Shown here one piece after another: positions 19,216 to 55,676 of a stretch of 64,000 nucleotides of DNA (positions within the stretch are counted from its first letter, which is position 1; the number at the start of each line of letters is the position of its first letter). The stretch is taken from contig NZ_GL987988.1 of the NCBI RefSeq assembly GCF_000158195.2, forward strand, positions 705,847 through 769,846. The letters are read 5' to 3'. A program made the translations under genes and the position numbers. Under the pieces are notes generated by a model that worked only from the letters and a program-made list of their open reading frames with translations, was not told the DNA's origin and did no database searches. This DNA comes from Fusobacterium mortiferum ATCC 9817 (GTDB taxonomy: Bacteria > Fusobacteriota > Fusobacteriia > Fusobacteriales > Fusobacteriaceae).

Positions 19216-19275
19216 AAAATAAACACTTCTAAATAAAGAATCTTTCAGTCTTTTATTATATTCTTTTCTATTCTA

Positions 19276-19304
19276 AGTGTAGCTCTATTTTATTTAAAAG
19301 TCAA
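19276..19304 (-). promoter_or_regulatory. Promoter of the chaperone-usher operon
   Basis: On the - strand, TTGACT, a 17-base spacer and TACACT lie about 130 bases upstream of the 19147 start. The rest of the 19148-19381 gap holds only the leader inverted repeat and the htpG terminator. Confidence 0.5.
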
Positions 19305-19381: not shown

Positions 19382-21204
19382 TTATTTTAAAAGATTATTT
19401 AATTTTTTAATAAACTCAACAGGATTTTCTATTTGGAATCCTTCAAGCATAAGAGCCTCTGTATAAAGAATATCTAATAAATCATCAAATTTAGGAGTAT
19501 CTTTACACTCTTGAAGTTTTGCAAATAGAGGGTGTTCTGGGTTTAGTGCTAAAATCTTTTCAGCTTTTATATTTTCATTTCCAGGAATTTGAGAAAGTAC
19601 TTTTTCCATCTCAAGAGAGATTTCTCCCTTAGCAAGTAGAGCAGAAGCACCACTACCTAAGTTATTACTTAGCTCAACATCTACTATTTTTCCTGTTAAG
19701 CTCTCTTTTATCTTATCTAGCATAGATTTATTGTCTTCAGATAATTTTTTAATCTCTTCCTCTTTTTCTTTGTTTTCCTCTAATTTGAAATCAGAATCAC
19801 TTATAGATTTGAAAGTTTTTCCTTCAAACTCATTCATAGTTTTTAGAGCAAACTCATCAATCTTATCAGTTAAGATTAAGACTTCTATTCCTTTTTCTTT
19901 TAGAGCTTCCATCTTAGGTAGAGATTTTACAGTGGCTAAATCCTCTCCTACTACATAAAGAATCTCTTTTTTCTCTTCTCCCATACGCTCTACATACTCT
20001 TTCAATGTAACATATTTATCATCTAGAGAACTTCTAAATATTAATAAGTTTTGAAGTTTGTCTTTATTCATTCCAAACATATCGTGGATACCAAATTTTA
20101 TATTTCTACCAAAAGCTTCCCAGAACTCAATATATTTTTCTCTATCATTTTTTAAGATATATTCAAGCTCTGATATGATTTTTTTCTCAAGATTTTTAGA
20201 AATAGCAGTAAGTTCACTATTTTGTTGTAAAATCTCTCTTGAGATATTTAGTGATAAATCATCACAATCTACAAGCCCTTTTACAAAACTAAAATATTCT
20301 GGAATTAGCTCATCACATTTATCCATTATAAAGACATTTTTTGTATAAAGTTGTAATCCTTTTTTATAATCTTTTGAGTAAAAATCCATTGGAGCTTTTT
20401 TAGGAATATATAGTAAAGCTGTATATTCAATACTACCTTGTACTTTTAGATGAAAGTGGAACATAGGATCTTCCCAATCGTGGAAAGTAGATTTATAGAA
20501 CTCATTATAATTTTCATCTTTAAGTTGCGATTTATCTGTTTTCCAAATTGGTTTTGTAGAGTTAATTGTTTCATCATTGAAAATAATTGGATATCTTACA
20601 TAGTCAGAGTATTTTTTAACTAAATCTCTTATCTTCCAATCTTCTAAGAAAGTCATAAACTCCTCTCCATCTTTTATAGTAAGAGTGATAGAAGTTCCTC
20701 TCTCTTTTTTTCAAACTCCTCTATCTCATAAGAACCATCTCCAGTAGATGTCCACTTTACTCCCATATCAGATTTTGGAGATTTTGTAATAAGAGTCATC
20801 TTATCAGCTACCATAAATCCAGAATAGAACCCTACTCCAAACTGTCCAATAATATCTATATCATCTTTTGAAGTGTTTTCTAATTTTTCTTTAAAAGCTT
20901 TTGAACCAGATTTTGCAATAGTTCCTATATTTTCAGCTACCTCATCATAAGTCATTCCTATTCCATTATCTGTAATTGTTATCTCTTTTTTATCCTTATT
21001 TACTGATAGAGTTATTTTAAAATCTCTATCTTCTCCTAAAATTTCACTATTAGTAAGAGCCTCAAATTTTATTTTATCAATAGCATCACTAGCATTTGAT
21101 ATAAGCTCTCTTAAAAAAATCTCTCTATTTGTATAGATAGAGTGTATCATCAAGTTTAATAATTCTTTAGTTTCTGCTTGAAACATTTTTGCTTCTTTTC
21201 TCAT
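19382..21204 (-). pseudogene. htpG: Chaperone HtpG (Hsp90), one-base frameshift
   Basis: Two leftward frames together make a normal-length HtpG. The first (21204 to about 20705) has the GHKL ATPase N terminus [33 protein letters not shown] and [11 protein letters not shown]. The second (from about 20705 to 19382) has the middle and C-terminal domains, starting near EFMTFLEDWKIRDLVKKY. They join at a run of seven A (T7 at 20705-20711 on the + strand). One more A restores the expected [11 protein letters not shown]. This is either a sequencing error, a real knock-out or a variable homopolymer. Htp90 remodels client proteins with ATP. CIRCE control is visible upstream. Confidence 0.9.
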
Positions 21205-31245: not shown

Positions 31246-31902
31246 ATGTTAGAAGAATTAAAAGAAGCAAATGAATATATAATAAGCAAGATAAAAGAGA
31301 ATGATGAATTAATACTTGAGATGGAAAAATATGCTAGGGAGTATAATGTTCCAATAGTTACTAAAGAGGTAGCTGAATATCTTAAATTTATAGTAAAAAG
31401 TAATGGGATAAAAAATATATTAGAAGTAGGAACAGCTATTGGTTATTCTGGAATATTAATGGCTAAAGAGATAGAGAAAAATGGTGGAAAACTTTATACA
31501 ATAGAGATAGATGAAGAAAGATATAATCTAGCTCAAGAAAATTTTAAAAAGTCTGGATTAAATAATATTGTATCTATAAAAGGAGATGCAGTAGAAGAGA
31601 TTAAAAAAATAGATGAAAAATTTGATTTTGTCTTTATTGATGCTTCTAAGGGACACTATATGGAATTTTTTGAAGATTCATATAAATTATTAAATAAAGA
31701 TGGAATAATATTTATTGATAATATTATGTTTAGAGGATATCTATATAAAGAGTATCCAAAGAGATTTAAAACAATAGTAAGAAGGTTAAATGAGTTTATT
31801 GAGTATCTATATTCAAGAAATGGAGGAGAGTTTGTACTTCTTCCTTTTGGAGATGGAATTGGTCTTTTCCGCAAGAAAAAAACCGAAAATACAAACGAAT
31901 AA
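31246..31902 (+). CDS. TrmR-like tRNA/O-methyltransferase
   Basis: This 218-residue SAM-dependent methyltransferase is of the catechol-O-methyltransferase-like family 3. It has ILEVGTAIGYSGILMA for SAM, IEIDEERYNLAQ, DFVFIDASKGHYMEFFE and FIDNIMFRGYLYKEYP. The nearest well-studied bacterial protein of this size and motif set is TrmR (YrrM), which methylates 5-hydroxyuridine at tRNA wobble position 34. The C terminus is intact, so phage insertion did not disrupt it. It is the last host gene before the prophage. Confidence 0.85.
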   Translation: MLEELKEANEYIISKIKENDELILEMEKYAREYNVPIVTKEVAEYLKFIVKSNGIKNILEVGTAIGYSGILMAKEIEKNGGKLYTIEIDEERYNLAQENFKKSGLNNIVSIKGDAVEEIKKIDEKFDFVFIDASKGHYMEFFEDSYKLLNKDGIIFIDNIMFRGYLYKEYPKRFKTIVRRLNEFIEYLYSRNGGEFVLLPFGDGIGLFRKKKTENTNE

Positions 31903-32502: not shown

Positions 32503-33936
32503 CTAAAATTTTAAATGGATGTAGAATCTATAATCATTTACCATTTCGATTTCATCTATTATAAGTTTTAAAAAATTATTTATTTTTTCTGGAGCTTTTT
32601 CCTTTTCTAATTTAAAAAAATATTTTTTTAATATCTCTGAATTTTTATTAGTATTTTTTTTATTAGTAATTAATGTAGTTAAATTTTTGATTTTTTCCTC
32701 CGGGAACGCCTTTTTTTCTTTTAACTCTTTCATTAACTTTTCGAAAACTTCCTCAGATATAAGAGAATTTAATAACTGCCTGGCTAGGAGTTCTTCTTTT
32801 CCAGAGAGAGAAGCCAACTCTTTTTTATAAAGAACTAATTGAGATTGATAATCATCAAATTTGGTATCAATGTTCTCTACTTCTAAAGAAAAAATAATTT
32901 TTTTTAAAGAAGCCATAACTTCTTCAAATAACTCTTCTTCATGAATACCAATAGCACCACACCCAAGACTTTTATATTTATCAGAAGTTCTACAATAATA
33001 TAGGTTCTCTGTTTTTCTAGAAATTTCATTGGTTGATTTTTTTAAATAATTATATTTATTTACAACCCGATACATCTTTCTTCCACAAGTACATTTTATT
33101 AAATCTTTAAAGATATATACATCTGTATTTCTTTCAACCTTAATATTTTTTAATTTACCTTGCACCAGGGAAAAAGTACTTTCATCTATAATAGGCTCAT
33201 GGATCCCATTCAACACTTTATAATCTTTATGAAGAATTTTTTTCTTATTAATTATTTCAACAGAATGGAATTTTAATTTTCCAATGTAGACGGGATTTTC
33301 TAATAATCTTCTAACCTTTTTTACTTCATATCCAAAAAAATTAGCAATGGATTGTCTGGTTTTTCCATCAAGAAAAAGTTTAAAAATAGTTTTAACCTTT
33401 TCTGCATCCTCTGGAACTATTACCAGCTCTTTATTAACTAATTTATATCCCAAGGGAGCTGGGCCTCCAGTCCATCTCCCTTGCTCTGCTAATTCAGTCA
33501 TTCTGTCCTTACTTCTTTTAGCTGTTTTCCTTCCCTCTCTAGCATCTAATAAATTTAAAAGATTAGTCAGAAAGGTATCATCAGCATCTTGTAAGTCTAA
33601 CCAACCATGTGTAACAGTATAAACTTTAACATTATGAACTCTTAATAATCCATAAAATATATGATGCTCCAATTCATCTCTTGTAAGCCTAGAACTTTCA
33701 TACAATACTAAAGTATCAACTAAATTATTTTGGATATCTTCTTTTAATTTACTATATTGTTCTCTGTCTTTATTGTACCCAGATGCTACATCATAATAAA
33801 CTTTTATATTTTGAAGATTTATTTTTTTAGCAGCTTTTTTACACATATCTATAAGACTTTGTATATTTTGCTTTTCTGTACTTTCCCTGCAATAAATAGC
33901 TGAAATTTTAGCAGGAGAAGAAAAACTATTCGACAT
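32503..33936 (-). CDS. Large serine recombinase (prophage integrase)
   Basis: This 477-residue enzyme has the N-terminal resolvase domain with IYCRESTEKQ (catalytic Ser19 and Arg17) and YESSRLTRDE. A recombinase domain follows (about 155-265), and a zinc ribbon starts with CTCGRKMYR and has later cysteines near CRTSDK and LGCGA. A coiled-coil motif (about 350-440) comes last. This order is that of large serine integrases, which join attP and attB without host factors. As the leftmost phage gene it places attL near 31.9-32.5 kb. It overlaps the 33-residue ORF upstream by 11 bases. Confidence 0.92.
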   Translation of the reverse strand: MSNSFSSPAKISAIYCRESTEKQNIQSLIDMCKKAAKKINLQNIKVYYDVASGYNKDREQYSKLKEDIQNNLVDTLVLYESSRLTRDELEHHIFYGLLRVHNVKVYTVTHGWLDLQDADDTFLTNLLNLLDAREGRKTAKRSKDRMTELAEQGRWTGGPAPLGYKLVNKELVIVPEDAEKVKTIFKLFLDGKTRQSIANFFGYEVKKVRRLLENPVYIGKLKFHSVEIINKKKILHKDYKVLNGIHEPIIDESTFSLVQGKLKNIKVERNTDVYIFKDLIKCTCGRKMYRVVNKYNYLKKSTNEISRKTENLYYCRTSDKYKSLGCGAIGIHEEELFEEVMASLKKIIFSLEVENIDTKFDDYQSQLVLYKKELASLSGKEELLARQLLNSLISEEVFEKLMKELKEKKAFPEEKIKNLTTLITNKKNTNKNSEILKKYFFKLEKEKAPEKINNFLKLIIDEIEMVNDYRFYIHLKF

Positions 33937-34087: not shown

Positions 34088-34627
34088 TTAGTATTCTTCT
34101 TCATCTTCCCAGTCATCTTCAAACTCTTCTTCATCCTCGTCATAGATTATTTTTATACCAAGGATTTTATCGTTGTTCTTAGTAACATAAACTCCATATC
34201 TTCCATCACCCCATCCAGTACTAGTAATGAAAGAGTTTTCTCTAAAACATATAGTATCGGTATCTTGGGAGAATAACTCGCATATTTCTTTATAATATTT
34301 ATCTTCCCATTTTTTTTCATTCCTATTTTTACATCTTCTCATCTCTTCATGTAAGCTATAATTAATCACTCCAGCTATGGCAGCATCAACACAAATAAAT
34401 CCTTCCTGTAGCCACAAGTAACCTTCTTGTTCATAAATTGATAAGCTTTCATGTAAAATTATTGCTTCTTTTACTCTATTTTCTTTGTTATAAAGAACAC
34501 AACATTTATAATCTCCAGCTTGAACATTCTCTAAAAGTACTATTCCTCTTTGATTTGGTTCATAGCAGTAGCAAGGGTCTGTTACCACAACCTTGTCCTC
34601 TAATTTTAATTTAGTTATAAATTCCAT
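34088..34627 (-). CDS. Phage hypothetical protein with acidic tail, 179 aa
   Basis: I do not recognise a named family. The N terminus has KVVVTDPCYCYE, a pattern seen in phage and plasmid proteins of unknown role. The C terminus is very acidic (EDEEEFEDDWEDEEEY), which can mimic DNA. A DNA-mimic or inhibitor role is possible but unproven. AGGAGG precedes the ATG. It is the last gene of the leftward early operon. Confidence 0.7.
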   Translation of the reverse strand: MEFITKLKLEDKVVVTDPCYCYEPNQRGIVLLENVQAGDYKCCVLYNKENRVKEAIILHESLSIYEQEGYLWLQEGFICVDAAIAGVINYSLHEEMRRCKNRNEKKWEDKYYKEICELFSQDTDTICFRENSFITSTGWGDGRYGVYVTKNNDKILGIKIIYDEDEEEFEDDWEDEEEY

Positions 34628-34749
34628 AATGTCCTCCTTATTGGCTCTCTAGCCTTGTATTTCTTAGGTTGTGTGTATATTACCTTACTATTCCTTTAAT
34701 TACAAGTTATTTCTCAACTTTTTATTCAATTTCCAATGTCCTTTTTTAT

Positions 34750-37264: not shown

Positions 37265-38248
37265 CTAGTTAATCTCCTTTAAAGGTTTCATTTTTTTACT
37301 TCTAGCATAAGAAATTAAATCTGCATAAGCTTCTCCTCTTGTTTTTCTATATGGAAGTAAAGGAGATTTTACTCCATGAACTCTAAAATCATTTTTATAA
37401 TCTGTTAACGTCTTAGCAAAATAAACTTTAAATTCACTTCCCCCTATCCCAGCACGGACAAAATAGATATATCCTTTTTCATCAATAAATGCTGATGAGT
37501 TGTTAAAATCATTATCACTAAACTCTTCAATTACAGGAGCTGGAGAAGTAGGTAATTTCAAATTATTTTGATTTTCATACTCCTTCTCTTTAGCGGATAT
37601 ATCTTTCTCCATTTCAGAAAGAAGTTTTTTCATAGCTTCAATCTCTTTTTTTGCCGAGCTAAGTTCAGCAGGAGAAGATGATTTTTTAATCTGTTTTTCA
37701 ATACTTTTAATAGCTCCTAAAGATTTTTTAGAAATGCTGCCTTTGTATTCAACAGCTCTTTTAGGTTCTGCTGGAGAGAGAGCTAGTTCGATTAGCTCTC
37801 TTATATCCTCCATGTTTTTCACACCTTTTTCCATAATGTCTAATGCTAATTGAGGATCAACATCTTTATGAGTAAGAAGTCTAACAGCTACTCCAGAGAG
37901 AGAACTGATATAATCTTTCATATGCGGGGCTTGGATGTAGAGCTCATAAGTTTTTAAAAGCTCACTCACCTTATCTTTAGTGAAGCCAAGATGACTATAC
38001 CAAGCCATGAAGCTACCCTCTTTAGCTTTTTGAAGTTTTATTTTAACTTCCACAAGTGCCATACAGATATCATATTTGGAAGAACTATATCTCTTAAAAC
38101 TATTTGAAATAAGTTCCTCTTTTTTTTCAATGAAGGCTTTATCTTCTGCATTGATTTCGTAACTCTCGAAATCAAAAGTTGAATGCCATTCTACTTCCTG
38201 CATAGTATTTTTTAATTTATCAAACATAGCTAATTTATTTGACATCAT
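37265..38248 (-). CDS. ParA partner / DUF3102-like DNA-binding protein
   Basis: This 327-residue protein starts at the ATGATG at 38248, chosen because GGAGG lies four to seven bases upstream and the start overlaps the parA stop (ATGA). An in-frame start at 38314 has no ribosome site. Residues 30-130 are helical and include GFTKDKVSELLKTYELYI, like the HTH of DUF3102. A coiled coil (about 170-230) and a C-terminal alpha/beta part follow. A role as centromere-binding partner of ParA is inferred from context only. Confidence 0.6.
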   Translation of the reverse strand: MMSNKLAMFDKLKNTMQEVEWHSTFDFESYEINAEDKAFIEKKEELISNSFKRYSSSKYDICMALVEVKIKLQKAKEGSFMAWYSHLGFTKDKVSELLKTYELYIQAPHMKDYISSLSGVAVRLLTHKDVDPQLALDIMEKGVKNMEDIRELIELALSPAEPKRAVEYKGSISKKSLGAIKSIEKQIKKSSSPAELSSAKKEIEAMKKLLSEMEKDISAKEKEYENQNNLKLPTSPAPVIEEFSDNDFNNSSAFIDEKGYIYFVRAGIGGSEFKVYFAKTLTDYKNDFRVHGVKSPLLPYRKTRGEAYADLISYARSKKMKPLKEIN

Positions 38249-38955
38249 AACACCTCCAGAACCTGTAAAAATAATTCTTGAAGTGTCACAGCATCTTTTG
38301 CTCTGTATTCCCAAATTGTTTTTCCTTCATCAATAGCTTTTGAAATGAAAGAACTTTGTTTTATAGGAACAGAAAGTAAAATATTTTGAGAAACAATCTT
38401 CTTTAAATTATCATAGTACTCTCTCTCAAGCTTGGTTCTCCCAGTACGATTTGGAATAATAGCTTTAACTTTACTTTTAGGGCTTATTTGCTCCATTAAA
38501 GTAATTATAGAACCTAAAGTTACTTGATCAAGGAAAGTTGGGATAACTACTTCATCTGCTAAGTCTATAAATTTTTTATCCAAGTTCAACACAGGTGTAG
38601 AATCAATGAAGATATAATCAAACTCTCCTTTTAAAACATTGATAAAACTCTCAAATCTTACTTCTAATTCCTCTGGAAGTACAGCCGAGTGAAATGGGAT
38701 ATAATAAAGGTTTTTTCTTAACTCTGTGAACCCACCATTACCACTTTTAAGCCATTCATCTAACCCTAGTGGAGTAAGACTACCATTACCACTAAAATCC
38801 AAAATATTATTTTGAGAATCAGAAGTAATTATTATAACCTTACTTCCATCAAGAGCAGCTTTATGTGCAAGTTGGAGAGTTATCCAACTTTTACCAACTC
38901 CACCTTTATTTGCTTTTACCAAAATTGTTTTACATCTATTTTTAAATTCTTCCAT
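38245..38955 (-). CDS. ParA-family ATPase
   Basis: This 236-residue protein has a deviant Walker A KANKGGVGKSW (near residues 14-24), a switch I-like IITSDSQNNILDF, and Walker B YIFIDSTPVLN. ParA/Soj ATPases move plasmids or chromosomes, and phage copies also occur in lysogens that replicate as plasmids. It overlaps the upstream gene by 14 bases and the downstream gene by four, so the three are one unit. Confidence 0.88.
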   Translation of the reverse strand: MEEFKNRCKTILVKANKGGVGKSWITLQLAHKAALDGSKVIIITSDSQNNILDFSGNGSLTPLGLDEWLKSGNGGFTELRKNLYYIPFHSAVLPEELEVRFESFINVLKGEFDYIFIDSTPVLNLDKKFIDLADEVVIPTFLDQVTLGSIITLMEQISPKSKVKAIIPNRTGRTKLEREYYDNLKKIVSQNILLSVPIKQSSFISKAIDEGKTIWEYRAKDAVTLQELFLQVLEVL

Positions 38956-39274
38956 TATCCACCTCTACTAATTTAAATTTATTAGGATTATTTATTACTA
39001 ATCTATAACCTTTTTGATAATCCAAACCGAAAGCTTCAGTATAAGTTTTTATATCTCTATATTCAAATCCAGTTTCTAAATCTATTACTTTTCTACAAAC
39101 CCTAGGTCTTTTAACATATTTTTCTCTATAATCTAAGATATGATGAGCCAACTCAAGTTTATTAACTTTGTATTTATCTGCCAGATTAAAAAGAAAATCA
39201 ATTTCATGATCATGAACATCTAATAAAAAACTATTCATAAAAGAAATTTCTTTAAAGAAATTATCTACAGTCAT
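38942..39274 (-). CDS. Phage hypothetical protein, 110 aa
   Basis: The start is taken as the ATG at 39274 behind GGAAGGTGG; a GTG nine bases upstream is in frame. The protein is helical and charged with no recognised domain. It overlaps both neighbours (14 bases each side), so translation is coupled between the 75-residue gene and parA. It could be a regulator of the partition unit, but this is a guess. Confidence 0.6.
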   Translation of the reverse strand: MTVDNFFKEISFMNSFLLDVHDHEIDFLFNLADKYKVNKLELAHHILDYREKYVKRPRVCRKVIDLETGFEYRDIKTYTEAFGLDYQKGYRLVINNPNKFKLVEVDNGRI

Positions 39275-39488
39275 ACTTACCACCTTCCATGTAATCAGCT
39301 GGAATGGGAGCTAAAATTCTCCCAGCAGCTAAGTCGCCTTGATGAAACATTTTTAGCTTCACTAAATCAAGGATTAATTTTCCAGCTAAGTCACCTTTGA
39401 TAGAATTATATCTATCTGAATCAATTCCTAACTCATCACATAATTCATGAATTTTATTATAATTTTCTACAGAAATTTTTATTGACAT
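39261..39488 (-). CDS. Phage hypothetical protein, 75 aa
   Basis: This is a small mixed alpha protein with LAGKLILDLVKLKMF in the middle and no recognised family. It directly follows the replication initiator stop (no gap), placing it in the replication/partition operon. Confidence 0.6.
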   Translation of the reverse strand: MSIKISVENYNKIHELCDELGIDSDRYNSIKGDLAGKLILDLVKLKMFHQGDLAAGRILAPIPADYMEGGKYDCR

Positions 39489-40415
39489 TTAAGCTCCTTT
39501 TAAACTAGATAGATGACTCTTAAATTCAAATACAGTCATCTTAGACAACTTGCTTTTATTTTTGTTTAAAGTTTCTAAAGGGATATTTATTATTATTTTT
39601 TCAATTTCACTTCTCAATTCTTTATCTGAATAGATACCAGAAAAATATTTAAGCCATTTGATTTTAGCTTCCATATCCTCTGGAGCAGCAGGAGAAATTT
39701 CAGCTTTAATCTCCCAATTATCTCTCAAGGCTTGATAGACAGCACCATCATCCCATTTTTTTAACTGAGCTGTCATAAGAACGAGCTTTATTCTCTCCAA
39801 ACCAACACTACCTTGTTCAACCAAAGTCATGATATTTTTACAAGTAGGAATACTTAAGCCATGACTTTGAAGTGCTGACTTGATTTGATAGATAGTATCT
39901 TTATCCAAATTATTCAAGTTAGAACTACTACTAATTTTTTTACTAACTTCCATTTGGTCTATCTTATTTACTTTATCTAACTTAGTAGTAGTTATTATAT
40001 TTAAATTAGTATTCTTAATATTAGTATTCTTAGGGGTACATTTCATGCTACTACCCCTACCCACATTTGATGTAGGTACTGTACCCTCATTTGATGTAGT
40101 GGGTACATTAAATGTAGGTACATCAGATGTAGGTACTTCTACATTGTTGAGATAATAAAGATTTGAACTTCCTTTTCTTTTTTCTATCTCAATCAACCCT
40201 TTTTCTTCTAAGGATTTTATATATTTAACAACTGTTCTATTGTCTTTTACTCCTAATTCATCACAAAGAGTAGCTAATTTAGGAAAAGCATAATCATTGT
40301 TTCCAGCATGTCTTGCTAAGCAGATGTACAACATTTTTTCATACAGATTTAAATCTCTTCTATCTACTAAAGCATTATCTACCCAAAACCAATCTTTTTG
40401 TCTTCTATCTCTCAT
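39489..40415 (-). CDS. DnaD-like replication initiator with winged-helix N terminus
   Basis: This is a 308-residue protein. The N-terminal 95 residues form a winged helix (FWVDNALVDRRDLNLYEKML, then LCDELGVKDNRTVVKYIKSLEEKGLI), as in RepA_N/phage initiators. A low-complexity linker (about 95-145) has repeated VPT units (VPTSDVPTFNVPT). The C-terminal part (180-300) has helices like DnaD domains, which load helicase. The linker DNA holds iteron-like repeats and is probably the origin, as in the lambda O gene. It is leftward and followed by parA-type genes. Confidence 0.75.
   Translation of the reverse strand: MRDRRQKDWFWVDNALVDRRDLNLYEKMLYICLARHAGNNDYAFPKLATLCDELGVKDNRTVVKYIKSLEEKGLIEIEKRKGSSNLYYLNNVEVPTSDVPTFNVPTTSNEGTVPTSNVGRGSSMKCTPKNTNIKNTNLNIITTTKLDKVNKIDQMEVSKKISSSSNLNNLDKDTIYQIKSALQSHGLSIPTCKNIMTLVEQGSVGLERIKLVLMTAQLKKWDDGAVYQALRDNWEIKAEISPAAPEDMEAKIKWLKYFSGIYSDKELRSEIEKIIINIPLETLNKNKSKLSKMTVFEFKSHLSSLKGA
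39960..40136. other. Candidate replication origin inside the initiator gene
   Basis: Four units ending in ATGTAG(TG)GGTAC or close variants lie at 40062-40136 (ACATTTGATGTAGGTAC, CATTTGATGTAGTGGGTAC, ATTAAATGTAGGTAC, ATCAGATGTAGGTAC). Beside them 39960-40030 is very AT-rich and contains ATTAGTATTCTTA twice. Iterons next to an AT-rich unwinding stretch, within an initiator gene, are the lambda-type origin layout. Confidence 0.6.
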
Positions 40416-41422: not shown

Positions 41423-41650
41423 ATGTTAAAATCAAAGTTAAGACATTTAATGGCAGATAAAAAAATAAATTCCTTATCAGCTTTAATTAGAGATTCCAAA
41501 ATTAGTAGAGAAACTTTAAATAAGTTGTACCATGAAGAAAAAATGGAAACTCTAAAGTTAGAAATGATAGTAAAAATTTGTGAATATTTTAATTGCAATA
41601 TCCAAGACTTAATAGAGTATATCCCAGATGAAGAAACTTTACAGAACTAA
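41423..41650 (+). CDS. XRE-type helix-turn-helix regulator, 75 aa
   Basis: This small Cro/CI-like protein has an HTH over about residues 15-65 (SLSALIRDSKISRETLNKLY and a following MIVKICEYFNCNIQDLIEY helix pair). The pattern matches short one-domain repressors of the YozG type. AGGAGG precedes the ATG. It is divergent from the leftward 40926-41168 gene, the usual place for a Cro or early repressor. The first palindromic repeat starts at its stop codon. Confidence 0.8.
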   Translation: MLKSKLRHLMADKKINSLSALIRDSKISRETLNKLYHEEKMETLKLEMIVKICEYFNCNIQDLIEYIPDEETLQN

Positions 41651-42940: not shown

Positions 42941-42972
42941 CATTTCTTAGCTATAATTATGGCTAAGAAATG
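42941..42972. other. Hairpin after the lipoprotein gene
   Basis: CATTTCTTAGC (42941-42951) and GCTAAGAAATG (42962-42972) are perfect 11-bp arms without a T-run. It may protect the 3' end or bind a protein. The real terminator follows at 43046. Confidence 0.5.
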
Positions 42973-47031: not shown

Positions 47032-48351
47032 ATGGAGATACTAGAAATAAAAATAGAAAATATTAAACTTAGTAAGTTAAATCCTAGAGTATCTACCCCA
47101 GAGCAGATAGAACAATATAAAAAGATTTTATCTAAGATAGGATTTATTATTCCAATCTTTATATCTTCAAATAATGAAATTTTATATGATACAGCTAAAT
47201 ATGAAGCTGCAAAACAATTAGGTTTTAAAACTATAAAAGCCATAAGAATAGAAGAGCTCCCAGAAAGCACTCTTGAAACATTAAGGGTAGCTGAAATGAA
47301 AGCTTTTGAAATGGGAGAATGGGATAATGAAGTTCTGTATGAAATTCTTGCTAACCTTGATGAAGAGAGTAGAAGCTTAACAGGATTTGACTTTGATAAA
47401 TTAAAAGCTGAAATAGATGCCTTTGAAACAATAGAAGAGATAGAAGAAATTGATACTCCAGAGGTAGAAGAAGAATACTTCTCTAAAGCTGGAGATATAT
47501 ATCTTCTTGGAGAGCATAGATTGATGTGTGGAGATTCTACTAAGAAAGAAGATGTAGAAAAGTTAGTAGATGGAGCAACCATTGATTTGATGATAACAGA
47601 CCCTCCATACAATGTTAACTATGAATCAACTGCTGGAAAAATTAAAAATGATAATATGAGTTCAAATGACTTTTATGAATTTTTAAAAAAGTTTTATGCA
47701 AATGCTTTTTCAGTGATGAGAGATGGAGCAGCCTTTTATATTTTCCATGCTGATAGTGAAACAAAAGCTTTCAGGGGAGCCTGTGAAGAAGTAGGATTCA
47801 AGATATCTCAATGTCTAATATGGGTAAAAAATGCCTTTAATCTTTCAATGCAAGATTATCACTGGAGGCATGAGCCTTGTCTTTATGGTTGGAAACTCGG
47901 GACAGCACATTATTTTATAGCAGACCGTTCCCAAGATACTATCTTAGAAGATATAGAAAGTCTGAAATCAAAAAGTAAAACTGAGCTTTTAGAGATGTAC
48001 CTAACTCTTCAAAAAACATTAGAGAATGTTTCCACTATTATCAGAGAAAATAAACCTTTAAAAAATGATGTACATCCAACAATGAAACCATTGAAATTAC
48101 TAGCAAGATTAATGGTTAATAGCTCTCAAAAAGAATGGAATATCCTAGATTTATTTGGGGGCTCTGGAAGTACAATGATGACTGCTGAACAGCTGGGTAG
48201 AAAAAGTTATTTGATGGAGTATGATCCAAGATTTGCAGATGTCATAGTAAAAAGATTTGCAAGTGTGAACAAAAATATAACTCTTCTTAGAGATGGAAAG
48301 GAATACTCTTGGAATGATATAAAATCTAACTTTGGAGAAATAGATGAGTAA
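47032..48351 (+). CDS. ParB-like / DNA methyltransferase fusion
   Basis: This is a 439-residue protein. The first 90 residues match a ParB/sulfiredoxin-type domain (KIENIKLSKLNPRVSTPEQI). Then comes a DNA N4-cytosine/N6-adenine methyltransferase of the beta arrangement, with DPPYNVNYE (motif IV, near 190) and DLFGGSGST (SAM motif I, near 375). Such fusions are common next to terminase genes in tailed phages and protect phage DNA from restriction. The recognition sequence is unknown. AAAGGAG is 11 bases from the ATG. It is the first gene of the late operon. Confidence 0.9.
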   Translation: MEILEIKIENIKLSKLNPRVSTPEQIEQYKKILSKIGFIIPIFISSNNEILYDTAKYEAAKQLGFKTIKAIRIEELPESTLETLRVAEMKAFEMGEWDNEVLYEILANLDEESRSLTGFDFDKLKAEIDAFETIEEIEEIDTPEVEEEYFSKAGDIYLLGEHRLMCGDSTKKEDVEKLVDGATIDLMITDPPYNVNYESTAGKIKNDNMSSNDFYEFLKKFYANAFSVMRDGAAFYIFHADSETKAFRGACEEVGFKISQCLIWVKNAFNLSMQDYHWRHEPCLYGWKLGTAHYFIADRSQDTILEDIESLKSKSKTELLEMYLTLQKTLENVSTIIRENKPLKNDVHPTMKPLKLLARLMVNSSQKEWNILDLFGGSGSTMMTAEQLGRKSYLMEYDPRFADVIVKRFASVNKNITLLRDGKEYSWNDIKSNFGEIDE

Positions 48352-51462: not shown

Positions 51463-51677
51463 TATTCACAGAAGAACAATGCAGACGGCACCTTGATATG
51501 TGGTTAGCAGCTGAAGAAGCTTTAGCTAAAGGGCAAAGCTACACAATAGGAAATAGAACTATAACAAGAGTTAATGCTTCGGAAGTTTCGAAAAACATTG
51601 AAACTTGGGCTGACAGATTAGAACGAGTAAAAGGAAGTGGAAGTCCTAGATTTGTCAAATTTATACCAAGAGGTTAA
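51459..51677 (+). CDS. Head-tail joining protein, gpW-like
   Basis: This 72-residue helical protein starts TEEQCRRHLDMWLAAEEAL and has SYTIGNRTITRV and WADRLERV, the pattern of lambda gpW-type connectors that seal the portal after packaging. It is in the canonical place between terminase and portal. Confidence 0.85.
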   Translation: MIFTEEQCRRHLDMWLAAEEALAKGQSYTIGNRTITRVNASEVSKNIETWADRLERVKGSGSPRFVKFIPRG

Positions 51678-54620: not shown

Positions 54621-55646
54621 ATGCCACAAGGATTTGATTTATATACACCAAAAACAATAAGAAAAATAAGAGAACAAGCTCCAATAAGAAAAAATTTTTT
54701 AAAGGATTTATTTTTTAGTAAAAGTTCTACTGTTACAACTGAAGAGATTATGCTTGAAATTACAAAATCAGGAGAACATATAGCTGCATTTGTAACACCT
54801 TTAGAGCTAGGGAAACCAATAGTAGATAGAAAAACAAAAACTAATTTAATTACAGCACCTAATATTGCTGTTGAGAGAACTTTAGGTCCTAAAGATTACT
54901 TTGTCAGAGAAGCTGGAATGAATGTTACTGGAGAATATAATCCATCACAAAGAATAGGAAAAAGAATTGCTGAAATATTAGCTGACCAGGAAAAATATAT
55001 TTCAAACAAAGAAGAATTAATGGTTGCACAATTTTTAACAACAGGGAAAGTAACTTCTACTACAGGAGAAGAGAGTTATGAAGTAGATTATGGATTAGAA
55101 AATCAATCAACTCTGCCTGGGGGAAGTAAATGGGGAGAATCTGGAGTAAATCCTCTTGTATCTTTAGACAAAATATTAGCAGAAGCTGAAGAGAGTGGAA
55201 TAATTATAAGAAATGTTGTTATGGGAATGGCAGCTGCTGAAAAATTTATGAACTCTTCTGAATTTAAAAAGGATATGTTGAGTAAAGATTTACAATCCGA
55301 ATTTGTAAAAACAGTTGTTAGAGAATACCCAGGGGTAGTGTGGTTAGGAACATATAAAACATATGGTGTCGAATTATTTAGATATTCAAGAAAAGTAATA
55401 GGACATGATGGGAAACCAATTCAATTAATGCCTACAAATATGATAATAGGAGCTCCTGTCGGTGGGGAAATATTATATGCACCAATTATCAATATGGGAG
55501 AAACAGACATGCATATAGTTCAGAGATTTAGTGATGTTTCTACACCAAATAAAAAATCTAAAATTATTTCTACTGAATCAAGACCAGTATTACAACCAAT
55601 GGATTTAGATGCTTATTTCTCAGTTGTAGTATGTGATGCAGAGTAA
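54621..55646 (+). CDS. Major capsid protein, lambda gpE-like
   Basis: This 341-residue protein resembles the Phage_cap_E family: TKTNLITAPNIAVERTLGPKD and REAGMNVTGEYN near the front, and DMHIVQRFSDVSTPNKKSKI plus VLQPMDLDAYFSVVV at the end. It has an HK97 fold by family. The RBS is GGAGG. Confidence 0.93.
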   Translation: MPQGFDLYTPKTIRKIREQAPIRKNFLKDLFFSKSSTVTTEEIMLEITKSGEHIAAFVTPLELGKPIVDRKTKTNLITAPNIAVERTLGPKDYFVREAGMNVTGEYNPSQRIGKRIAEILADQEKYISNKEELMVAQFLTTGKVTSTTGEESYEVDYGLENQSTLPGGSKWGESGVNPLVSLDKILAEAEESGIIIRNVVMGMAAAEKFMNSSEFKKDMLSKDLQSEFVKTVVREYPGVVWLGTYKTYGVELFRYSRKVIGHDGKPIQLMPTNMIIGAPVGGEILYAPIINMGETDMHIVQRFSDVSTPNKKSKIISTESRPVLQPMDLDAYFSVVVCDAE

Positions 55647-55676
55647 TTTCGAAAGTTACGAAAAAGGAGTTAGAAC

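Follow-up and report, generated by a model that had tools for sequence, protein, structure and literature searches.

Partition genes have been described both in phages that persist as plasmids and in elements that integrate. Phage-plasmids are said to lack an integrase typically and to be episomal in lysogeny (PMC12977533). The prophage-plasmid N15, by one account, has a ParA/ParB-type system, SopAB, with four inverted-repeat centromere sites, IR1-IR4 (PMC7205306), and in cluster A mycobacteriophages a parABS system is reported to replace the integration cassette (PMC7157519). In prophage CGP3, the actin-like AlpC and its adaptor AlpA, whose binding repeats lie upstream of the operon, increase the amount of circular phage DNA about twofold, and the report judges them unlikely to segregate this DNA, favouring instead an aid to replication (PMC4446434). 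The srpMRC partition system is reported to stabilise the SXT/R391 integrative and conjugative elements, which integrate and have a circular, plasmid-like phase (PMC4489591). As reported, these last two are precedents for segregation-like modules on the circular phase of integrating elements. Here we consider a ParA gene and the partner gene behind it in a prophage of about 46.6 kb from Fusobacterium mortiferum ATCC 9817. The window analysed, a stretch of 64,000 nucleotides, is G000:C2:705847-769846 of the 2.67-Mb genome (G000); positions without a prefix refer to it, and the prophage runs on past its end.

The locus resembles each of these systems in part. As in plasmid type I ParABS systems, ParA is followed at once by a proposed DNA-binding partner and there are repeated palindromes; here, however, no ParB_N domain is detected in the partner (E<=1), the sites lie across the phage genome and the host element is an integrating prophage. 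Like N15, this is a phage with ParA, a proposed partner and four independent candidate palindromes, but N15 is a linear plasmid in lysogeny whereas the F. mortiferum element is integrated. The cluster A mycobacteriophages are also temperate phages with partition genes; here integrase and partition genes stand together. CGP3 is alike in having a segregation-like module in an integrated prophage, a module reported to act on excised circles, but it uses an actin-like motor with another adaptor, where the present locus has ParA. The srpMRC system is described as distantly parMRC-like, of the actin type, and belongs to a conjugative element, whereas ours is of the ParA type in a prophage. Fusobacterium phage Funu1 (KR131710) has the same order of rep, ParA and partner, but its partner is annotated as hypothetical and its sites all have one mismatch. 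Partition genes and a phage genome are what a phage-plasmid has; a serine integrase with attL and attR is at odds with its integrase-free, episomal lysogeny. The parts are individually known, and the combination of integrase, ParA, ParB-fold partner without a ParB N-terminal domain and dispersed sites may be new, on the weak evidence that listings of the open-licence literature did not show it.

ParA and its partner probably form, in our view, a partition module that acts on the circular phase of this chromosomally integrating prophage; plasmid maintenance during lysogeny is possible. The element has the genes of a temperate tailed phage (portal, head, sheath, terminase-like, holin and regulator). 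Its early gene block, on the minus strand from 41168 to 31931, encodes in order small proteins, Rep, two small proteins, ParA, the partner, further small genes and, at its end, the serine integrase; short overlapping plus-strand frames were taken as chance. A 14-bp core is common to attL and attR, and the site is empty in the relative G009, where the locus is uninterrupted: the host sequence breaks off at 31859 and returns at coordinate 78400 of the joined 94-kb sequence. A close relative of the prophage occupies the identical integration site in G011. On this comparison of sequences, the element integrates into the host chromosome. The first-pass annotation had likewise proposed an integrating prophage, with a Rep-type initiator, ParA and a DUF3102-like partner in one block and a serine integrase elsewhere in the element. 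Integration and the identities of initiator, ParA and integrase are borne out, the integrase lying in one minus-strand block with rep and par; rep and ParA lie within the span given for the block (38245-40415), the partner gene just outside it, and the DUF3102 assignment falls away.

The ParA protein has the deviant Walker A motif (KGGVGKS, at residue 17) of type I partition ATPases, and the partner gene adjoins its own. The best match of the partner is phrog_32652, of unknown function (8.2e-29), and its Pfam matches at E<=1 include neither DUF3102, for which there is a resemblance by eye alone, nor ParB_N. Among PDB sequences, searches give nothing convincing for the partner (best E 0.012), and for ParA nothing at 1e-6. 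The AlphaFold model of the partner has a mean predicted local distance difference test score of 82.7, with 92-96 per ten-residue block over residues 31-150, and eight of the first nine rows of its VIA-align comparison are ParB/Noc DNA-binding proteins. The top scores are those of 7bnr (Z 8.1, root-mean-square deviation 2.8, 98 residues aligned), 7ng0 (8.0), 7ol9 (7.7) and 1vz0 (7.1); the ParB-parS complex 6s6h scores 6.3 and SopB (3mkz) 5.0. The model suggests a ParB-like DNA-binding core in a protein with no detected ParB N-terminal domain, and the partner may represent a centromere-binding family of that kind. Both genes appear to be under purifying selection, the ratio of non-synonymous to synonymous substitution being 0.09 for ParA and 0.17 for the partner in the single pair G000 and G011. 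The partner also weakly matches UPF0137 (E 0.00086, for one of four members), a family encoded next to a ParA gene on chlamydial plasmids, and a distant link may exist.

The candidate centromere is a palindrome, ATTTCG-N7-CGAAAT, that was found through the codons of the partner gene. Codons for FDFxSxE in partner genes retain the palindrome whilst the central amino acid varies between Y, F, C and R. The exact site is present in 14 of the 22 partner genes compared, where 0.23 would be expected from codons redrawn for unchanged proteins (12 of the 34 partner genes were omitted: lower-scoring, partly plasmid-side ones, plus that of L121). To judge from these codons, the site is conserved at the DNA level. 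Only two exact sites occur in the source genome, and both fall within this prophage. When one mismatch is allowed, the 46.6-kb prophage has five raw or four independent sites (two exact, two with one mismatch) and the 47.6 kb of host flanks has none; the sites near G000:C2 779977 and 780460 (joined 74131 and 74614) are the arms of one inverted duplication around a run of N and were therefore counted once. In control scans, 119 other arms of equal composition gave a mean of 0.13 matches and a maximum of 1, and spacings of 10-39 gave one match in 30 scans. Repeated centromere-like sites, a further mark of type I partition, are thus present as far as sequence can tell. There is no sign of an ordinary centromere array next to ParA, since in the window the 1.5 kb on either side of par shows no repeats above shuffles; the first-pass annotation had proposed a search for parS-like repeats, and the scattered palindrome is the candidate found instead.

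The same association extends across the order (96 genomes). Among 75 listed exact sites, 42 are no more than 50 kb from a partner match (20 of them at the match itself), where about 2.5 would be expected at the rate of the control pattern; this count covers 75 of 91 forward sites and 39 partner matches, most weaker ones being left out. Eighteen of the 33 sites away from a partner were examined, in 14 regions: 14 sites fall in regions with at least four phage-library matches; of the other four, two have a single such match in their region and two have none. G001, G002 and G008, in which no partner was detected, have one exact site each, and that of G008 (L176 9298; G008:C1:1235297) is in a phage-like region behind an internal recombinase, the same place as in the window's prophage. 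A prophage of Cetobacterium sp. 2A (G041) has three sites, one of them exact, and 33 kb of its flank has none. Other half-sites are found elsewhere: AATTCG in the second prophage of the source genome, TTTTCG in G003 and CTTTCG six times in G078, where six CTTTCGCAAGCTTGCGAAAG-type palindromes occupy 17 kb around ParA and partner (L126, G078:C38). Leptotrichia plasmids carry ATTTCGACCGCGGTCGAAAT, with the same half-sites, ahead of ParA and again between it and the partner. On a Fusobacterium varium plasmid, a 28-bp palindrome of another kind occurs at three positions around the pair and is a strong candidate centromere of different specificity.

The pair itself is common to plasmids and prophages. 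A ParA search at E<=1e-10 returns 17 plasmid records, 16 of them from Fusobacteriota and all below 60% identity, and one phage, Funu1; a search of viral contigs matched four loci, all resembling Funu1. ParA is directly followed by a gene in each of the six of these 17 plasmids examined, as well as in three further plasmids in which the partner was found, and a profile comparison links phage-side and plasmid-side partners with 98.9% probability (E 1.7e-17). The partner is detected in 45 of the 96 genomes. In the closer group, it lies directly behind ParA in 23 of 24 elements, the remaining one being cut by a contig end, and in 20 of the 24 an integrase (8 serine, 12 tyrosine) follows the pair within 4.2 kb on the same strand; 19 of these integrases are Pfam-confirmed, and that of the Funu1 type is supported by motif only. 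The four without an integrase are L073, L121 (partner 0.5 kb from a contig end), and L077 and L079, which have TrbI-like conjugation genes. A motif-called tyrosine integrase in L133 was dropped because it shares 77% identity with a protein whose annotation is RepB plasmid initiator. On a tree of 41 partners, the label 'integrase-linked' needs five changes, four of them forced by well-supported branches, as against 13.8 in shuffles, so that the link to an integrase is not recent. The source genome has a second prophage with ParA, partner and tyrosine integrase (L028), and a plasmid-type pair on another, large contig (L029 7793-9608; G000:C8 ~741792-743607), beside genes that by eye look thiamine-related; before its ParA is a 28-bp palindrome, AACTAAGTCGCATGCATGCGACTTAGTT, of the type found on the F. 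varium plasmid pFV113-g1-1.

A junction of the kind expected from a circle is found in the Cetobacterium relative, whose proteins are 42% (partner), 48% (ParA), 44% over 142 residues (Rep) and only 28% (serine integrase) identical to those in the window. Contig C1 of its assembly, whose ends overlap, holds the prophage between attL and attR; contig C5, of 17,404 bases, has the right end of the phage joined to its left end through the core AGGATGTAAGTGTTC, and joining the host flanks restores an open frame. Two other alternative contigs of the prophage region, C3 and C4, are present in the assembly. C5 would be the attP product either of a circle or of two tandem prophages. The first-pass annotation had raised persistence both integrated and as a plasmid: its first half stands, and for the second there is this attP junction, in a relative only, which a circle and tandem prophages fit alike. 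A 218-kb record called a plasmid, pSB029A (NZ_CP077186.1; L032, L006), has a Funu1-like prophage with pta, acetate kinase, nifJ and pckA next to it; the record, possibly a fragment of a chromosome, was not counted as proof of a plasmid form.

The replication module by itself does not speak for a plasmid state. Since the initiator is of the phage type, the 'plasmid-like replication' of the first-pass annotation is unsupported, and a Pfam scan that covered 29 of the prophage's proteins, part of its open reading frames, brought up no recognisable plasmid-type replication gene. The N-terminal third of Rep does resemble proteins of Clostridioides plasmids (21 of 23 plasmid records). Phage genes are present in all three of these records that were examined. 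In two of them another gene annotated as a replication initiator lies a few kb from ParM; the third has ParA and no further gene with such an annotation. With a phage-like Rep and phage genes on the related plasmids, the replication module alone is no argument for a plasmid state. Repeats within the rep gene are read as candidate origin iterons because similar palindromes recur in the rep gene of L074; those of L067, L072 and Funu1 hold at most one each. Origin repeats that lie inside the rep gene are a layout seen in other phage origins.

Thus, gene content, integration, the distribution and conservation of the site and the attP junction in a relative are matters of sequence, and the plasmid homologues, the centromere-like sites and the ParB-like fold of the model give the ParA-partner pair the look of a genuine partition system, much as the first-pass annotation had supposed in calling the region a partition block. 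A prophage with a full set of phage genes would then carry its own type I-like partition module. The partner would bind the palindromes scattered over the phage genome, loading on circular copies, and ParA would spread or pull the partner-DNA complexes over the nucleoid. The centromere sites of N15 are similarly spread through its genome. Lying in the early block between rep and integrase, the par genes would be expected to act on circular phage DNA, and being in one block with these genes they should be expressed in the active and not in the repressed phage. The module would therefore work whilst the DNA is circular, after infection and before integration, and again after excision, so that copies are positioned, protected and passed to daughter cells until integration or lysis.

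Several observations weigh against a partition module of this kind. Over whole genomes, the reversed control is commoner than the pattern itself (143 against 91 in the 96 genomes), so that the argument depends on the location of the sites. In many relatives there is no exact site near par: the second prophage of the source genome, with its AATTCG half-sites, lacks the site even at one mismatch, as do L029, L009, L034-L036, L070, L126, L131-L133 and others, and only one-mismatch forms, if any, are seen in the Funu1-type phages, L071 and L116. In G071 the site is common to three elements, of which two have an integrase and one has TrbI; as plasmids these should therefore be incompatible. The partner's VIA-align list also contains RuBisCO accumulation factor chains, with Z 7.3, 6.3 and 6.1, and the first two of these are the only entries other than ParB/Noc among its first ten rows. 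Foldseek finds no match to the model at E<=0.001, and as the model is helical, a Z of about 8 may reflect no more than a common arrangement. In addition, the assembly that contains this prophage has no attP copy of it, the right end occurring in full only once there.

The same evidence has to be set against other roles for the pair. It is rather unlikely that in some lysogens the phage persists as a replicating plasmid, whether in place of the integrated copy or in addition to it. The attP contig alongside an integrated copy in one assembly, the plasmid-type partition pair and the related initiator domain in phage-gene-bearing Clostridioides plasmids would all be accounted for; however, induction or tandem prophages also yield a joined attP, and the initiator looks phage-type, with the Pfam scan offering no plasmid-type substitute. 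The block shared with rep and integrase would equally suit a ParA and partner that place excised, replicating phage DNA during the lytic phase and have no role in inheritance by daughter cells, and the AlpAC system of integrated CGP3, as reported (PMC4446434), is a precedent. Its motor is actin-like rather than a ParA, though, and homologous pairs are common to plasmids, where inheritance is the plain role, and also lie beside the conjugation genes of L077 and L079; we regard a purely lytic role as unlikely.

That the partner is a transcription factor and the palindromes its operators across the phage genome seems improbable. Palindromes on plasmids do stand before ParA and between ParA and partner, where autoregulation would be expected, and two of the four independent sites in the prophage lie between genes or at a gene end. 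Both exact sites, however, are inside coding sequence, as are those in the terminase, protease and (by eye) endolysin genes of other prophages, and the constant pairing of the partner with ParA also speaks against a regulon. Least credible is that the par genes are a plasmid remnant, inert in the prophage: nothing positive speaks for it beyond the fact that integrated DNA needs no partition, and purifying selection on both proteins, DNA-level upkeep of the site and the diverse, well-supported integrase-linked groups of the partner tree all argue against it.

A partition module on the circular phase is the preferred reading. Integration and partition, usually seen as alternatives, occur side by side here in diverse elements, whose integrases are of two kinds and whose replication modules, judged by eye, are of two kinds or more. 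With a candidate site now named, the purpose of partition in a chromosomal prophage can be tested directly. A more far-reaching proposal, which we consider doubtful, is that these phages form a Fusobacteriota temperate lineage with facultative double lysogeny, integrated by default and otherwise a partitioned, replicating and stably inherited circle, with a ParB-fold partner that lacks the ParB N-terminal domain and a centromere that is dispersed, as in N15, and in part concealed within coding genes.

Features of the prophage and of related elements (positions in the window unless a contig or plasmid is named; aa, amino acids)
Feature	Position	Strand	Remarks
attL core TTTGGAGATGGAAT	31846-31859		3' end of host gene 31246-31902; by alignment with G009 empty site and attR
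Serine integrase (large serine recombinase)	32503-33936	-	Resolvase 8.1e-23, Recombinase 1.5e-13, phrog_95 7.3e-74
Promoter-like leader copies	34618-34714; G000:C2 ~783114-783171, ~783539-783636, ~784041-784138		each before a minus-strand accessory gene, near attL/attR
ParA partner, proposed centromere-binding protein	37265-38245	-	predicted ParB-like DNA-binding core, residues 51-158
Candidate centromere site, exact (ATTTCGTAACTCTCGAAAT)	38154-38172		within partner gene
ParA ATPase, 236 aa	38245-38955	-	AAA_31 2.8e-13; phrog_164 'ParA-like partition protein' 1.8e-26
113-aa protein between Rep and ParA	38942-39283	-	weak match to phrog_33918 (0.0038), no function; no Pfam match at E<=0.1
75-aa protein between Rep and ParA	39261-39488	-	relative adjoins Rep in L072 (46% over 70 aa); no Pfam match at E<=0.1
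Replication initiator, phage-type, HTH_36 N-terminal domain	39489-40415	-	Pfam HTH_36 9e-15; phrog_270 'replication initiation protein' 4.3e-21
Iteron-like repeats ACATNNNATGT with GTACCT, candidate phage origin	40058-40137		within rep gene
Cro/C1-type helix-turn-helix regulator	41423-41650	+	divergent from rep-par-int block
Candidate centromere site, degenerate (GCTTCGGAAGTTTCGAAAA)	51576-51594		between terminase and portal genes; relaxed scan only
Candidate centromere site, one mismatch	55646-55664		starts at last base of major head protein gene
Second exact candidate site	G000:C2:773040		within 191-aa tail-region gene
attR core	~G000:C2:784249-784262, beyond window		14-bp core TTTGGAGATGGAAT common to attL and attR
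28-bp palindromes, F. varium plasmid (L033)	~19258-19285, 19560-19587, 20703-20730		two slightly imperfect

To the right of the regulator are methylase, terminase, portal, protease, head, sheath and tape-measure genes, and past the window end baseplate, peptidase and holin genes, some of these names being given by eye or from the parallel order in Funu1. The methylase (47032-48351) has a weak ParB_N-like N-terminal domain (1.6e-4) and is unlinked to ParA. At 42941-42972, between convergent genes, is a 32-bp near-perfect palindrome that is probably a two-way terminator. A 97-nt repeat, present at 34618-34714 and three more times near attR, was discounted as a possible centromere because every copy forms the promoter-like leader of a minus-strand gene. 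These four leaders, at both prophage ends, consist of TTGyAA, 17 nt, TAATAT, a short hairpin and a ribosome site. The inverted duplication around the N run (G000:C2 ~779897-780576; joined 74051-74730) lies behind an internal tyrosine recombinase and close to repeated tail-region stretches, and resembles an invertible tail region; contigs C1, C3 and C4 of the Cetobacterium assembly differ by inversions at a comparable place.

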